Below the pieces are notes generated by a model. That model saw nothing but the letters and a program-made list of their open reading frames with translations, ran no database searches and had not been told where the DNA came from. DNA of 64,000 nucleotides from Halorientalis sp. IM1011. Lineage in GTDB: Archaea > Halobacteriota > Halobacteria > Halobacteriales > Haloarculaceae. Made by a program: the position numbers and the translations under genes. Each line of letters opens with the position of its first letter. Position 1 is the first letter of the stretch. Where the stretch lies: assembly GCF_001989615.1 (NCBI RefSeq), contig NZ_CP019067.1:124001-188000 (forward strand). The letters run 5' to 3'. Shown here piece after piece: positions 1,248 to 60,356 of this stretch.

Positions 1248-1268
1248 GTGGACACAGAGGTTTGCCGC

Positions 1269-2234
1269 ATGACCTGGCAATCGAAGCGTCGGGCCTTCCT
1301 CCGGACCGCAGTCGTCGCGACAGCAGCGGGTGTCGCCGGCTGTTCGGACGACGGCTCGGCCGACACTCCGGACGAAGACGAGGAACTGACCGAATCGGCA
1401 ACACCGACGGACACACCCGAAGAGACGGATTCGGAGGGTGAGACACCCGACGAGTCGGATGAGCCAGCAGAGCCCGACGAACCAACCGACGTACAGAACC
1501 CGAAGCAGACCGTCGACGACTGGCTCTCGAACACGAAAAACTACGACGGATCGATCAATCCGATGATCGGGCGGACCGACGTGTCGATCGGCGTCGGCGT
1601 CGACGACGGATCGGGGAGTAACTTCGCGTTCGGCAAACCCGCGATCAGAGTCACGACGGGAACGAAGATCCAGTGGATCTGGGAGGATCCGGAGAACGAA
1701 CACAACGTCCGCGAGCGCAACGGCCTGTTCGACAGCGGGCGGCCCGTCGCCTCGTCCGGGAAGACCTACACTGTGACGCTGACCGAACCCGGCGTCTACC
1801 TCTACCGATGTTCGAACTTCGGCGGTGCGATCGGGATGCGCGGTGCGATCATCGTCGAAGAAGAGCAGTCGCTCAGTGGCTACCCGAAAGTCGACGAGTG
1901 GCTCGACGAGTACGGCGAGTACACCGGCCGTCTGACCGACAGGACAGGCGAGTCGTCCGTCTCGGTGACGGTCGGTGCGCGCCACGACGGGCAAAACCGG
2001 TCGTTCGATCCGGTTGCCATCCTCGTCGATTCCGGGACGGAGATCGTGTTCGAGTGGAACGGTCGCGGCGGCTCACACGACGTGGTCTGGGAAGACGGCG
2101 ACTGGGGCGCCAGTCGGACGACGGCCGACGCGAGTTACTCCTACAGCGTGACCATGGACGAACCGGGCGTCTACCGCTACTTCTGTCGGACGGACAAACC
2201 CTACAACGGCCGCGGCGCGGTCGTCGTCCGCTAG
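1269..2234 (+). CDS. Tat lipoprotein with two degenerate halocyanin (blue-copper-like) domains
   Basis: 321 residues. The N-terminus has a twin-arginine signal (KRRAFLRT) and a lipobox GVAGC with the lipidated Cys at residue 25, followed by an acidic, Thr/Asp/Glu-rich linker to about residue 75. Two cupredoxin-like domains follow (about 78-198 and 206-321), each with the EPGVYxYxC strand of halocyanins, small electron carriers on the outer face of the membrane. A type-1 copper site needs His, Cys, His and Met. Domain 1 keeps H145, C181 and M190 but has Phe where the PH of CxPH should be. Domain 2 keeps H270 and C306 but lacks both the second His and the Met. Copper binding is therefore doubtful. 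The start was chosen from the TATA box 22-30 nt upstream. Confidence 0.8.
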   Translation: MTWQSKRRAFLRTAVVATAAGVAGCSDDGSADTPDEDEELTESATPTDTPEETDSEGETPDESDEPAEPDEPTDVQNPKQTVDDWLSNTKNYDGSINPMIGRTDVSIGVGVDDGSGSNFAFGKPAIRVTTGTKIQWIWEDPENEHNVRERNGLFDSGRPVASSGKTYTVTLTEPGVYLYRCSNFGGAIGMRGAIIVEEEQSLSGYPKVDEWLDEYGEYTGRLTDRTGESSVSVTVGARHDGQNRSFDPVAILVDSGTEIVFEWNGRGGSHDVVWEDGDWGASRTTADASYSYSVTMDEPGVYRYFCRTDKPYNGRGAVVVR

Positions 2235-55042: not shown

Positions 55043-56047
55043 CTATCCCTGTGCGCCGAACCACTGCTCGGCCAGCCAGGAGTCGTAGTCCTCCTGTGAC
55101 CTGACATCCACGGATCCGAGCATACCCGAGTGGCCGACGCCACAGTACTCGGCGCAGTAGAGCTGATACTCGCCGGTCGACTGGGCCTTGGTGACGAGAT
55201 AGTTCGACTGGCCCGGCAGCGCGTCGGTCTTGAGTCCCAGTTCGGGGACGTGGAACGAGTGCAGCCAGTCCCGGGAGGTGATGTTCAGCCGGACGTTCCG
55301 CTCGTTCGGCATGACCATCGTGTTGGTACTCTGGATGGTCGCGTCCGAGATAGTCGCGTCCTCGACGGCCGCCCCACTGACGGTCACGTCGGAGAACGTG
55401 ACGGTCTCGCCGGTGCGGTTCTCGTACTGGCTCGCGTTTCCGGCTCCGGCAGTCACCGTCCCGTTGACGAGTGAGGCGCTCTCGAGCGCCCCGTCGGTGG
55501 CACTGGAGGCGGAACCACCCGATATTACGATCCCTTCGTCAGTGACGTTCTCGACGGTTGCACCTTCTATCGAGGCGTTCGTCAGCGCCACGTCGGTCGC
55601 GCTCGCACCGTCGACACTCACGTTCCGGTAGACGAAGTTCCAGTTGTACTTCTGGCCGTACACTTCGATCTCTTCGGCTGCATCGCCGGGGAGTTCGTTC
55701 TGTGACTCGGCGGCCACGTAGGGATTCCCGAGCACCTGATAGGAGGCGACGCCGACGAAAAGGAGGATGATCGCCGTCGCGATGGTCCATGTGATCTCGA
55801 GTCGACGGTTCTCCTGGGTCGGCTTGGCCTCCTCGGTCTTCCGGTACTTCCAGACGGTGTAGATCAGGATCCCCTCGACGAGGATCGTGATCGGGACCGC
55901 CACGTAGATCAGGTTGCTGTTCAGCCCCTGGATGGCTGCATCGGTGGTCGACGAGTACGTCGACTGGGCAGCGGCGGGTTCGACCGCCAGCAGCCCCAGT
56001 ACAGCACCGAAAAGCGCCAACGCCCCGGCACGCTTGCGGTTCATCAT
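55043..56047 (-). CDS. coxB: Cytochrome c oxidase subunit II (CoxB) with a large insertion in the cupredoxin domain
   Basis: 334 residues. The signal peptide is at 1-28, with helices at about 45-67 and 87-108. The CuA domain has DWLHSFHVPELGLKTDALPGQSN with ligand H263, and YCAEYCGVGHSGM with ligands C298, E300, C302, H306 and M309, so the binuclear copper site is complete. Between the strand VYGQKYNWNFVYRN and MVMPNERNVRLNITSRDW is a 100-residue insert (about 142-244) of short repeats, VDGASATDVALTNASIEGAT-like, reminiscent of beta-helix or pentapeptide coils. Subunit II accepts electrons from halocyanin or cytochrome c. A TATA box at 56071-56080 supports the start. Subunit I is not in the window. 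Confidence 0.9.
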   Translation of the reverse strand: MMNRKRAGALALFGAVLGLLAVEPAAAQSTYSSTTDAAIQGLNSNLIYVAVPITILVEGILIYTVWKYRKTEEAKPTQENRRLEITWTIATAIILLFVGVASYQVLGNPYVAAESQNELPGDAAEEIEVYGQKYNWNFVYRNVSVDGASATDVALTNASIEGATVENVTDEGIVISGGSASSATDGALESASLVNGTVTAGAGNASQYENRTGETVTFSDVTVSGAAVEDATISDATIQSTNTMVMPNERNVRLNITSRDWLHSFHVPELGLKTDALPGQSNYLVTKAQSTGEYQLYCAEYCGVGHSGMLGSVDVRSQEDYDSWLAEQWFGAQG

Positions 56048-56192: not shown

Positions 56193-57623
56193 GTGAGAGG
56201 TACAGCCGTGATCGAACGCGTTCGTCCCCGTTTCGCGACCCTTCTGGCCGGATCGGCCGTCGGTGTCTACCTGCTCGTAGTCGCGGGCGCGACAGCGTCC
56301 ATCGCGGACGCCGCGAGCGCCTGCTCGGCGTGGCCTGTGTGTTCCCGCCCGCCGTCACTGGCCGAACCCACCCTGCTCGTCGCCTGGGGACATCGCGTGG
56401 CTGCCGTCCTCGTAGGACTGATCGTGCTGGCCACCGCGGCGGTCGGCCTGACCCGAGCCAGCGTCTCGCGACGCGTGAAGGGCGCGCTCGCGTTCGCGTT
56501 CGTTCTCTTCCCCGTGCAGATCGCGCTCGGCGCACAGGTCGCGACGACCGGTGCCGCCGACCCGTTCCCGGCGGCCCACCTGCTTACCGGCATGGGAATC
56601 TTCGTCGGGTTGACGCTTGCGCTCGCGTGGCAACTCGAACCGCGCGACGCCGACGAGCCGGCGACCGAGCCCGACCCCGAACCGGCTCCGACCGCCACTC
56701 CGCAGCCCGAATCGACCGAGCAGCCACCCCTCCCGGATAGCTCGTTCGCGCGTGCGAAACACGTCGCCGGGGCGTACTTCCGGCTGATGAAGCCCCGGCT
56801 GATGTGGCTGCTCTGTCTCGTCGCCTCTGCCGGGATGGCGCTGGCGGCCGGGACCGCCGGAATGGACCTGACGGTCCAGACCATCGTGTTGACCCTCGGC
56901 GGCGGCGTCCTCGCCATCGGCGCGAGCGGGACCTTCAACCACGTCCTCGAACGTGACCGGGACAAGAAGATGGACCGGACGAGCGACCGACCGGTTGCGA
57001 CCCACCAGCTCCCCGTCCGCAACGCCGTCGCGTTCGGACTGGCACTGGCGGCCGCCTCCGTCGCCGTCTTCCTGCAGGTGAACCCGCTCGCGGCCGCCCT
57101 CGGGCTCTCGGCGATCCTGTATTACAGCGTGATCTACACGCTCGTGCTCAAACCCAACACGGTCCAGAACACGGTCATCGGCGGTGGCGCCGGCGCGCTG
57201 CCCGCCCTGATCGGCTCGGCGGCGGTGACCGGCACCGTCGGCCTGCCGGGACTCGTGCTGGCCGGTGTCATCTTCGTCTGGACGCCCGCGCACTTCTACA
57301 ACCTCGCGCTCGCGTACAAGGACGACTACGCCCGTGGCGGCTTCCCGATGATGCCGGTGGTCCGCGGTGAAGCGACCACCCGCAAACACATCCTGCTGTG
57401 GCTGGCTGCGACGCTGCTGGCCGCGGCCGCACTGGCCGCCCTGACGAACCTCGGCTGGGTGTACGCCGTCACGACCATCGGGCTCGGGTCGGTGTTCCTG
57501 TGGGCGGTCGTCAGACTCCACCGCGAGCGCGACGAGTCCGCGGCGTTCCGGGCGTTCCACGCCTCGAACGCCTACCTCGGGGCGCTCCTGCTCGCAATCG
57601 TCGTCGACACCCTCGTGGTATGA
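56193..57623 (+). CDS. ctaB: Heme O synthase (CtaB) with an N-terminal half-CtaA (heme A synthase-like) domain
   Basis: 476 residues from a GTG (another GTG at 56208). The C-terminal 290 residues are a UbiA-type farnesyltransferase: KPRLMWLLCLVASAG, NHVLERDRDKKMDRTSDRPV (first Asp motif) and YKDDYARGGFPMMPVV (second). The N-terminal 150 residues have four helices and read like one half of CtaA: an extracellular CSAWPVC matching the CxxWPxC disulfide loop, a heme-ligand-type GHRVAAVLVG and a second His in AAHLLTGMG. The Glu of CtaA's ExxH motif is Ala here (AWGH). A Pro/Glu-rich linker joins the two parts. Acts in heme O/A synthesis for the oxidase; divergent from coxB. Confidence 0.88.
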   Translation: MRGTAVIERVRPRFATLLAGSAVGVYLLVVAGATASIADAASACSAWPVCSRPPSLAEPTLLVAWGHRVAAVLVGLIVLATAAVGLTRASVSRRVKGALAFAFVLFPVQIALGAQVATTGAADPFPAAHLLTGMGIFVGLTLALAWQLEPRDADEPATEPDPEPAPTATPQPESTEQPPLPDSSFARAKHVAGAYFRLMKPRLMWLLCLVASAGMALAAGTAGMDLTVQTIVLTLGGGVLAIGASGTFNHVLERDRDKKMDRTSDRPVATHQLPVRNAVAFGLALAAASVAVFLQVNPLAAALGLSAILYYSVIYTLVLKPNTVQNTVIGGGAGALPALIGSAAVTGTVGLPGLVLAGVIFVWTPAHFYNLALAYKDDYARGGFPMMPVVRGEATTRKHILLWLAATLLAAAALAALTNLGWVYAVTTIGLGSVFLWAVVRLHRERDESAAFRAFHASNAYLGALLLAIVVDTLVV

Positions 57624-58306
57624 CTACCGACGCAACGATCACCGATCGGCTCGCGGGACTCAGACCGGACCGGGAGGAGTTACTGATCGCTCTGCTGATC
57701 TTGAACTCCGAGTTGCTCCTGCTGGGCGTGTACTGGGTCGTCAGTTCGGCCGAACTGACGGGAACCCTCGCGATCCGGTACTGGATCTACCCGTTCGTCT
57801 GGATCAACGTCGGCCTGCTGGCCATCGTCAAGACGACGCCCGTGGCCGCCAGCAGCCGGGACCGCTGGCTCGCCGGTGCCATCGCGGTCGGCTACTTCGC
57901 GGTGCTTGCGTACGTCGGCGGCCTCGTCGGCCCCGACATCAGCATGGCCGAAAAGAACCTCAGTCTCACGGTGCTGGGGCTGCCGCCGGGCTGGGCACCG
58001 ACGCTTCTGTACAACGGGTCGTATTTCGCGATGTCACTGATCCCGTTCAAGCTGGTCGGCTACGCCGCGCTGGCGTATCTGGTGTACGCGACGGTGCTCG
58101 ACGCGGCTGGCTCCGCGGTGACGGGCCTGCTCGGCCTGCTCTCCTGTGTCAGTTGCACCTGGCCTGTGCTGGCCACAGTGGCATCCAGTCTCCTGGGAAG
58201 CGGGACTGCAATCGCCGGCGCAGTGACCGCCCAGTCCTACGGCATCTCGACCGTGGTGTTCGTGGTGACGGTCGGGCTGCTGTACTGGCGGCCGTTCGGC
58301 CGCTGA
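57620..58306 (+). CDS. Multi-pass membrane protein of the oxidase cluster (possibly DUF7546)
   Basis: 228 residues with six helices. The start overlaps the ctaB stop as ATGA, so it is coexpressed with heme synthesis. It has NSELLLLGVYWVVSS, a loop SMAEKNLSLTVLGLPPGWAPTLLYNGSYF, and SCVSCTWPVLATVASSLLG with two Cys in a CVSC motif within a helix, which could bind metal. I recall similar proteins beside haloarchaeal ctaB as DUF7546. Its position suggests a role in cytochrome oxidase assembly, but that is inference. Confidence 0.72.
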   Translation: MTTDATITDRLAGLRPDREELLIALLILNSELLLLGVYWVVSSAELTGTLAIRYWIYPFVWINVGLLAIVKTTPVAASSRDRWLAGAIAVGYFAVLAYVGGLVGPDISMAEKNLSLTVLGLPPGWAPTLLYNGSYFAMSLIPFKLVGYAALAYLVYATVLDAAGSAVTGLLGLLSCVSCTWPVLATVASSLLGSGTAIAGAVTAQSYGISTVVFVVTVGLLYWRPFGR

Positions 58307-58343
58307 CGGACGGGCTTTTCCCCGCTGCACCCGAACTGCGAGT

Positions 58344-58574
58344 ATGACCGAGGTCGAGATCGAATACTGCGTCCCCTGTGGCTTCCTCGATCGCGCCGAG
58401 AACGTCCAGCACGTCCTGCTCTCGACGTTTGGCGAGAAACTGGACGCGGTGACGTTGCGAACCGGCGCGAACGGTGTGTTCCGCGTGACCGTCGACGGCG
58501 AACGGGTGTTCGACAAACAGGAAGACGCGTTCGACGTGGACGAGATAACCCGGCAGGTTCGCGAGTACGTCTGA
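58344..58574 (+). CDS. Rdx/SelW-like thioredoxin-fold protein
   Basis: 76 residues. VEIEYCVPCGFLDRAENVQHVLLSTFGEKLDAVTLRTGANGVFRVTVDG is the Rdx (selenoprotein W-type) pattern with CVPC as the redox motif in place of CxxU. Rdx proteins are small thioredoxin-fold oxidoreductases of uncertain target. It follows the oxidase-cluster gene by 37 bp on the same strand. Confidence 0.88.
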   Translation: MTEVEIEYCVPCGFLDRAENVQHVLLSTFGEKLDAVTLRTGANGVFRVTVDGERVFDKQEDAFDVDEITRQVREYV

Positions 58575-58623
58575 CCGGTCCCGAATCGACGGGCTTAGGA
58601 CGGATCCGGACCCCGATTCGACA

Positions 58624-59586
58624 ATGACAGCAGCCGTCGTCGCCGAGGACGTTCGTCGGAGCTACGGCGACACGACCGCACTCGACGGCGTCTCGCTCAC
58701 GGTCGACGAGGGGGACGTGTTCGCGCTGATCGGGCCCAACGGCGCGGGAAAGACCACCCTCGTCCGGGCACTGCTCGGTACCACCGACGCCGAGGGGACG
58801 GTCGAGGTGTTCGGGAAATCGCCCCGCGAGGTCGAGCGGGCGCGACTCGGCTCGCTCCCTCAGTCGTTCGATCCGCCCGCCCGGCTCACCGCCCGTGAAC
58901 TGCTCGACTACTACGGCGGGCTCTACGACGACGCCCGCCCGGTCGACGACGTGCTGGCCGACGTGGGACTCGCCGAGGACGCCGATACCTGGTACGAGAA
59001 CCTCTCCGGTGGCCAACAGCGCCGTGTCTGTGTCGGGACGGCGCTGGTCAACGACCCCGACCTGCTCGTGCTCGACGAACCGACGACGGGCATCGACCCC
59101 GCAGGTCGGCGGGCACTCTGGCGGCTGATCGAGGATCTCGCTGCCGGCGGGACGACGGTCTTTCTGACGACCCACTACATGGCCGAAGCGGAACGACTGG
59201 CCGACGAGGTGGGCCTGCTGGCCGACGGCCGACTCGTCGCCCGCGACTCGCCGGCGGCGCTGATCGCCGAGCACGGCGGGGAGAGTCGACTGGTGATCGA
59301 CACCGACGCCGAGCCTGCGATCACCGGTGATCTGGGTTACCCCGCCGAACTCGCCGAGGGCCGGCTGACGGTCTACGACGTGCCGCCCGAGGAGATCGGC
59401 GAGGTCGTCGCCGCCCTCGATTCGGCCGGGGCGACCTGCGACTCGATCGAGTGGACCGAACCCGACCTCGAAGACGTGTACCTGGATCTGACGGGGCAAG
59501 CTGTCACGGCGAGCGGCGAGACGGTCAGCCGCGGGGAGACGCCGCTGGCCGACGGTGGCAAAGTAACTGGAGGTGACCGATCGTGA
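58624..59586 (+). CDS. ABC transporter ATP-binding protein (exporter type)
   Basis: 320 residues. Walker A LIGPNGAGKTTLVRAL (about 39), signature LSGGQQRRVCVGTAL (about 126), Walker B LLVLDEPTTGIDPAGRR and switch His TTHYMAEAERLADEVG are complete. The C-terminal 100 residues form the regulatory extension found with ABC-2 permeases. CTTAGG about 28 nt upstream is a weak TATA. The following permease overlaps by GTGA. Being in the oxidase block, heme, copper or lipid transport are possibilities, none demonstrated. Confidence 0.92.
   Translation: MTAAVVAEDVRRSYGDTTALDGVSLTVDEGDVFALIGPNGAGKTTLVRALLGTTDAEGTVEVFGKSPREVERARLGSLPQSFDPPARLTARELLDYYGGLYDDARPVDDVLADVGLAEDADTWYENLSGGQQRRVCVGTALVNDPDLLVLDEPTTGIDPAGRRALWRLIEDLAAGGTTVFLTTHYMAEAERLADEVGLLADGRLVARDSPAALIAEHGGESRLVIDTDAEPAITGDLGYPAELAEGRLTVYDVPPEEIGEVVAALDSAGATCDSIEWTEPDLEDVYLDLTGQAVTASGETVSRGETPLADGGKVTGGDRS
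59569..59576 (+). promoter_or_regulatory. Ribosome-binding site of the ABC permease
   Basis: GGAGGTGA lies 6 nt before the GTG at 59583, inside the end of the ATPase gene. It decides the permease start and indicates translation from the internal site of the operon mRNA. Confidence 0.75.
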
Positions 59587-60356
59587 GCGCTGTCGGTCGG
59601 ATCTGGGCGGCAACCGTCGCCGCCGGGAAGTCGTTCCTCCGGCGGCGGACGGCCGTCTTCTTCACCTTCTTCTTCCCGGTGATCATCATCCTGATCTTCG
59701 GGTCGCTCGTCCAGACCGGCGCGGGCGGGACCGGCCTGTTCACCGAACCGGCGGCTTACTACGTGCCGGGCTATCTCGCGGTCGTGGTCCTGTTCACACC
59801 GCTCTCGCGGGTTGGAAGCGAGGTTGCCCGCCACCGCGAGGGCAACCAGTTCGAGAAACTGGCGACCACGCCACTCGCCAGCTGGGAGTGGCTGCTGGCC
59901 CAGACGCTGGTCAACGTGGCCATCATCGGGCTGGCCGGCCTGCTCCTGCTCGGCCTGATCGTCCTCGTGACCGGCGCCGAGATCGCGTTCTCGCCCCTGT
60001 TGATCCCGTTCGTCGGCCTCGGCGTCGCGCTGTTCTGTGGCGGGGGCGCACTGATCGGCAGTTTCGCCGGGTCACAGGACGGCGTCATCGCCGCGAGCAA
60101 CGGCATCGCCCTGCCGCTGCTCTTTCTCTCCGAGACGTTCGTCCCGCCGTCGATGCTGCCCGAGTGGTTCCGCCCCGCCATCCTGCTCTCGCCATTGACG
60201 TACTTCTCACGAGGCGTGCGGGCGGCGACCTACGGCCCGGGGATCGAACCGCTGGCAGGTCTGCCGACGGGACCGCTGTTCTACCTCGGCGTGCTGGCCG
60301 GGTTGACGCTGGTCTTCTTCGCAGGTGGGGCGGCCGCACTCCCGCGGACGGACTGA
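59583..60356 (+). CDS. ABC-2-type transporter permease
   Basis: 257 residues from a GTG. Six helices follow the ABC-2 layout: an N-terminal amphipathic segment then FFTFFFPVIIILIFGSLV, VPGYLAVVVLFTPL, REGNQFEKLATTPLASWEWLLAQTLVNVAIIGLAGLLLLG, and the last pair with PPSMLPEWFRPAILLSPLTYFSRGVRAATYG. It forms the membrane channel with the preceding ATPase and is translationally coupled to it. Substrate unknown. Confidence 0.9.
   Translation: MSAVGRIWAATVAAGKSFLRRRTAVFFTFFFPVIIILIFGSLVQTGAGGTGLFTEPAAYYVPGYLAVVVLFTPLSRVGSEVARHREGNQFEKLATTPLASWEWLLAQTLVNVAIIGLAGLLLLGLIVLVTGAEIAFSPLLIPFVGLGVALFCGGGALIGSFAGSQDGVIAASNGIALPLLFLSETFVPPSMLPEWFRPAILLSPLTYFSRGVRAATYGPGIEPLAGLPTGPLFYLGVLAGLTLVFFAGGAAALPRTD

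Follow-up and report, generated by a model that had tools for sequence, protein, structure and literature searches.

A pentapeptide-repeat-like insertion at the donor-contact loop of cytochrome c oxidase subunit II in Halorientalis

The bovine cytochrome c-oxidase crystal structure revealed that subunit II contacts cytochrome c through the residues Tyr105, Ser117, Asp119, Tyr121 and Asp139 (PMC5286356). Oxidase subunit II is enlarged in actinobacteria and in ciliates. In mycobacterial CtaC, the aa3 subunit II of the bcc-aa3 supercomplexes (e.g. 6adq_E and 8hcr_E), the enlargement lies in the loop that is also enlarged in Halorientalis, and CtaC has as its partner a tethered di-haem cytochrome instead of a blue copper protein. 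In the ciliate Tetrahymena, an insertion in mitochondrial COX2 recruits a bound Tim hexamer (PMC10060162), indicating that insertions in subunit II can serve as partner sites. The ciliate protein (compare 7w5z_C2) is much larger (604 amino acids) and has another partner than those considered here, and its likeness to the Halorientalis subunit, also a core subunit II with an insertion, concerns the presence of an insertion. In haloarchaea the electron donor is probably halocyanin (PMC8305020). Little is known of the way in which haloarchaeal oxidases take up electrons from halocyanin in place of cytochrome c, and a genus-wide insertion at the donor-contact loop, together with an insert-free relative, makes donor recognition at CuA testable. 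The case described below adds an archaeal member to the enlarged subunits II.

The window, that is the whole stretch of 64,000 nucleotides analysed from Halorientalis sp. IM1011, contains a coxB gene that is transcribed divergently from an oxidase assembly gene. The features of the gene and its neighbour are as follows.

55043..56047, minus strand: coxB (cytochrome c oxidase subunit II), 334 amino acids plus stop, ATG at 56047, TIGR02866 E 2.1e-55
55337..55624, minus strand: lineage-specific insert, residues about 142-237, pentapeptide-repeat-like, predicted beta-helix (periodicity, comparison with the insert-free relative G003, PDB profile, AF2)
55259..55261, minus strand: CuA ligand H263, from alignment to bovine subunit II
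55121..55156, minus strand: CuA ligands C298, E300, C302, H306 and M309, from alignment to bovine subunit II
56193..57623, plus strand: CtaA/CtaB fusion (COX15-CtaA and UbiA), divergent from coxB, oxidase assembly context

The CoxB protein scores 187.4 bits against the TIGR02866 cut-off of 147.7, exceeds the cut-offs of both Pfam COX2 and COX2_TM, and has two transmembrane segments. Residues H263, C298, E300, C302, H306 and M309 correspond one to one, with correct spacing, to bovine H161, C196, E198, C200, H204 and M207, strongly supporting an intact CuA site in the insert-bearing CoxB. The original prediction of a normal subunit II frame with a complete CuA ligand set is thus borne out by TIGR02866, Pfam and the bovine alignment. 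A misreading, a frameshift or a pseudogene is ruled out, as the frame is open in eight species and the length differences are whole codons. On the plus strand, the CtaA/CtaB fusion is followed by a DUF7546 membrane protein and an ABC-2 transporter pair (56193-60356 in all).

The insert in the Halorientalis CoxB is real, conserved and lineage-specific. It lies between the cupredoxin strand ...YNWNFVY, which ends at residue 140, and the strand NTMVMP, and adds about 93-96 residues relative to G003, a relative placed in the same genus. The span first given, 55316-55624 (residues 142-244), captured the insert and ran a few residues too far; we set the end at about residue 237 because the STNTxVMP found there is common to G003. 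The Halorientalis CoxB shares two transmembrane segments and the full CuA ligand set with the TIGR02866 family, and the insert-bearing proteins differ from other haloarchaeal CoxB proteins by the spacing between the strand end and the CuA His motif, which is 109-119 residues in the eight insert-bearing proteins against 25-48 in the other 64 of 72 distinct haloarchaeal CoxB sequences. All eight long-spacing proteins come from Halorientalis, and the 64 short ones comprise G003 and 63 others, so that a routine haloarchaeal loop is ruled out, in agreement with the original view that the insert is unusual. Of the eight genomes placed in the genus, seven have the insert, as does H. pallida, giving eight insert-bearing Halorientalis genomes. 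The second aa3-type CoxB of the IM1011 genome (L002) lacks it. A profile of the insert searched against 392 genomes of the order found the CoxB of seven Halorientalis genomes and, more weakly, pentapeptide-repeat proteins and other proteins of repeat type. In another search of 392 genomes of the order, none of the matches listed from outside Halorientalis spanned the insert. Restriction of the insert to Halorientalis CoxB is therefore strongly supported within this sample.

In a tree built with the insert left out, the insert-bearing CoxB proteins form one clade (SH-aLRT 86, where 95 is usually demanded) and the G003 protein falls outside it among other genera, a pattern that fits a single gain. 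The dN/dS values of the insert between close species, 0.10-0.46, are comparable with those of the rest of CoxB, and purifying selection on the insert is strongly supported by these sequence comparisons. In four members of other genera (L076, L079, L083 and L094), the CoxB loop at the same site carries LTASDLNL, LTAADVSL or LTASDID. The LTASDLNL-type motif is similar to the first residues of the insert in Halorientalis (VTASDLTL in G006), either by coincidence or possibly as the seed from which the repeat grew.

Pentapeptide-repeat proteins form a right-handed quadrilateral beta-helix with four repeats per coil, and the textbook consensus has Leu or Phe at position i and Asp or Asn at i-1. In the insert, 10 hydrophobic pairs were observed at a lag of five residues against 3.9 expected (p = 0.0008, shuffle), with further autocorrelation peaks at lags 10 and 20 (p = 0.005 at lag 20) and depletion at lags 3, 4 and 6. 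The lag-5 test gave p ≤ 0.002 in each of the inserts of seven genomes, p = 0.14 and 0.09 in the CuA half and the transmembrane half of the same CoxB, and, as expected, a strong signal when applied to a true pentapeptide-repeat protein encoded in the same genome. In addition, the five-residue period is retained in the inserts of G006 and G002, which share just 38-39% identity with the IM1011 insert. The pooled frame, A/V/G - T/S - V/L/I - E/S/T/D - G/D/N, follows the pentapeptide-repeat order of small, outward, aliphatic, outward and turn residues. The frames read from the sequence are arranged in three runs.

55502..55621, minus strand: first run, residues 143-182, eight frames, VSVDG ASATD VALTN ASIEG ATVEN VTDEG IVISG GSASS; the sixth frame is imperfect and the register is read from sequence
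55448..55492, minus strand: second run, residues 186-200, three frames, GALES ASLVN GTVTA, after a three-residue shift
55415..55435, minus strand: predicted short helix linker ASQYENR, residues 205-211, of differing length between species
55328..55402, minus strand: third run, residues 216-240, five frames, VTFSD VTVSG AAVED ATISD ATIQS, with a weak Pfam Pentapeptide_3 match

Thus about 16-17 frames are read in the insert (runs of 8, 3 and 5), and a chain-finding script that bridges the linker gives 16-19; the eight-frame in-register run is found in most species with one imperfect frame. Similar to proteins of PF00805 and PF13576, the insert has a five-residue period, a small residue at i-2 (A/V/G), an aliphatic residue at i and a turn former at i+2 (G/D/N). 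It differs from them in preferring Val over Leu or Ile at i rather than Leu or Phe, in having Thr or Ser rather than Asp or Asn at i-1, in its imperfect frames, interrupted by a phase shift and a linker, and in its position within another domain.

A profile made from the eight inserts was searched against all PDB sequences. It matched 11 chains up to E 10 (best E 4.8e-6), named as the designed beta1 series, NP275, NP275-NP276 and thylakoid lumenal 15 kDa, all of which we take, from their names and the aligned sequences shown, to be pentapeptide-repeat proteins. Two column-permuted versions of the insert alignment matched only unrelated PDB chains (best E 0.35), showing that the signal depends on the order of residues and not on composition. 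Together with the shuffles, these controls rule out low-complexity chance as the source of the periodicity. The only clear repeat-protein relative of the insert in its own genome is itself a true pentapeptide-repeat protein. However, the insert scores 16.8 bits against the PF13576 cut-off of 27, and PF00805 was seen below its cut-off in only two of the eight members (best E 0.011); we call the insert pentapeptide-repeat-like for this reason. Weak similarity to the insert (E 4e-7 to 2e-3) was also seen in the haloarchaeal proteins L109, L114, L115, L116, L128 and L129, which are apparently secreted and carry VTVENATI-type repeats and long acidic or Thr tails.

The best AF2 model of the soluble domain has a mean pLDDT of 84.7 and a pTM of 0.76, with means of about 76-95 over blocks of the insert, which is predicted as strand nearly throughout, and the full-length model agrees on the insert. 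The five models had pLDDT values of 84.7, 67.2, 51.6, 45.8 and 41.0 from alignments of 5-6 sequences, and only the best is confident. Foldseek returned CuA domains and no pentapeptide-repeat proteins among the 50 PDB matches listed, the cupredoxin half dominating, and the search against BFVD was likewise dominated by that half and uninformative for the insert. Taken together, the insert is very probably a beta-solenoid, predicted to be compact and to sit on the outward side of the CuA domain. The original prediction of a pentapeptide or beta-helix coil therefore holds in its five-residue period, its matches among PDB sequences with clean permuted controls and its all-beta prediction; it falls short at the Pfam cut-offs and in the four less confident models. 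A disordered linker lacking periodicity, named there as the contrary outcome, does not agree with the lag-5 statistics or with the predicted strands.

Alignment with the bovine subunit places Ser117, Asp119, Tyr121 and Asp139 in the loop at the insertion site and Tyr105 in the strand before it, although exact pairing within the loop is not meaningful. This loop has 10-16 residues in many haloarchaea, about 31 in the bovine protein and about 66 in mycobacterial CtaC, where, in contrast to the insert, it is not pentapeptide-repeat-like by eye. The original statement that known subunits II have short loops here was consequently too strong, and the mycobacterial case marks the site as one known to accept large additions.

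Based on these results, we propose that a pentapeptide-repeat-like domain of about four coils was gained in the CoxB loop between ...YNWNFVY and NTMVMP, most likely once, in the ancestor of the insert-bearing Halorientalis species. The domain would form a rigid platform or wall next to the face where electrons enter, and would bind or orient a partner, either a lipid-anchored halocyanin, thought to be the haloarchaeal donor, or a protein in permanent association with the oxidase. The role is suggested by the bovine subunit II, in which most of the contact patch for cytochrome c lies in this loop, and the docking or partner-binding module of the original prediction is plausible by the same analogy. 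Neither a partner of the insert nor a contact residue nor a co-varying donor was found. We give the explanation as a whole close to an even chance of being right; the role as a partner platform, taken by itself, is a tentative assignment somewhat below that. A more specific version, which we consider unlikely, is that in an aa3-type oxidase the contact loop for cytochrome c has given way to a pentapeptide-repeat-like beta-helix that acts as a lineage-specific docking module for halocyanin or a tethered cupredoxin. If true, a repeat domain would have served one archaeal genus to remodel the face of complex IV through which electrons enter. In terms of novelty, CoxB is a known subunit with an insertion of a known kind of repeat; in the literature searched, we found no paper linking pentapeptide repeats with oxidase subunit II.

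Alternatively, the solenoid might pack on subunits I/III or on a lineage-specific accessory subunit and stabilize the complex, with no contact to a mobile donor. Insertions in core subunits can recruit permanently bound proteins, such as the Tim hexamer on ciliate COX2 (PMC10060162), the QcrC of Corynebacterium, fixed in the supercomplex, provides a static route for electrons to CtaC, and mycobacterial CtaC has its enlarged loop at the same position. However, no accessory partner was identified, and the insertion site is the donor-contact loop and not a known interface with subunit I/III, making this bracing role rather unlikely. Neutral or near-neutral growth of a tolerant loop through pentapeptide duplication, persisting without a role, would accord with the very different lengths tolerated at this site and with the short LTASDLNL and LTASDID motifs in some other haloarchaeal CoxB loops, which could be its seed. 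Against such growth, a similar length of 93-103 residues is kept in the eight species with the five-residue core intact at an insert identity down to about 38%, and the dN/dS of the insert is well below 1; we consider this explanation improbable. Slightly less probable still is a glycan-bearing or shielding module, whose N-glycosylation sequons would lie on the outside and protect the CuA domain or fit the S-layer space: six of the seven Asn residues of the insert stand in N-x-S/T sequons (plain shuffle p = 0.0016) and five other species have 4-6 sequons, but the pentapeptide register itself gives Asn at i+2 and Ser/Thr at i-1, the excess is mostly not significant when the register is preserved (p 0.02-0.25), and the G002 insert has only two. 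Sequon enrichment was set aside as independent evidence, being mostly a by-product of the register.

Outside the window, the same genome has three aa3-type coxA genes without a nearby coxB match (C1:588676, 1223184 and 397025), and several subunit I proteins may therefore share this CoxB. A tie between the insert and several subunit I isoforms is not supported, as G003 has comparable aa3-type coxA genes without the insert, which also indicates that this type of oxidase can function without it. The genome has 11 copper-binding domain matches, one of them adjoining a coxA gene. In addition, the window encodes a two-domain halocyanin-like protein (1248-2234, plus strand) with two PF00127 matches and a likely lipobox; by eye, the His that normally follows the Cys ligand seems to be missing from both domains, as does the Met from the second.
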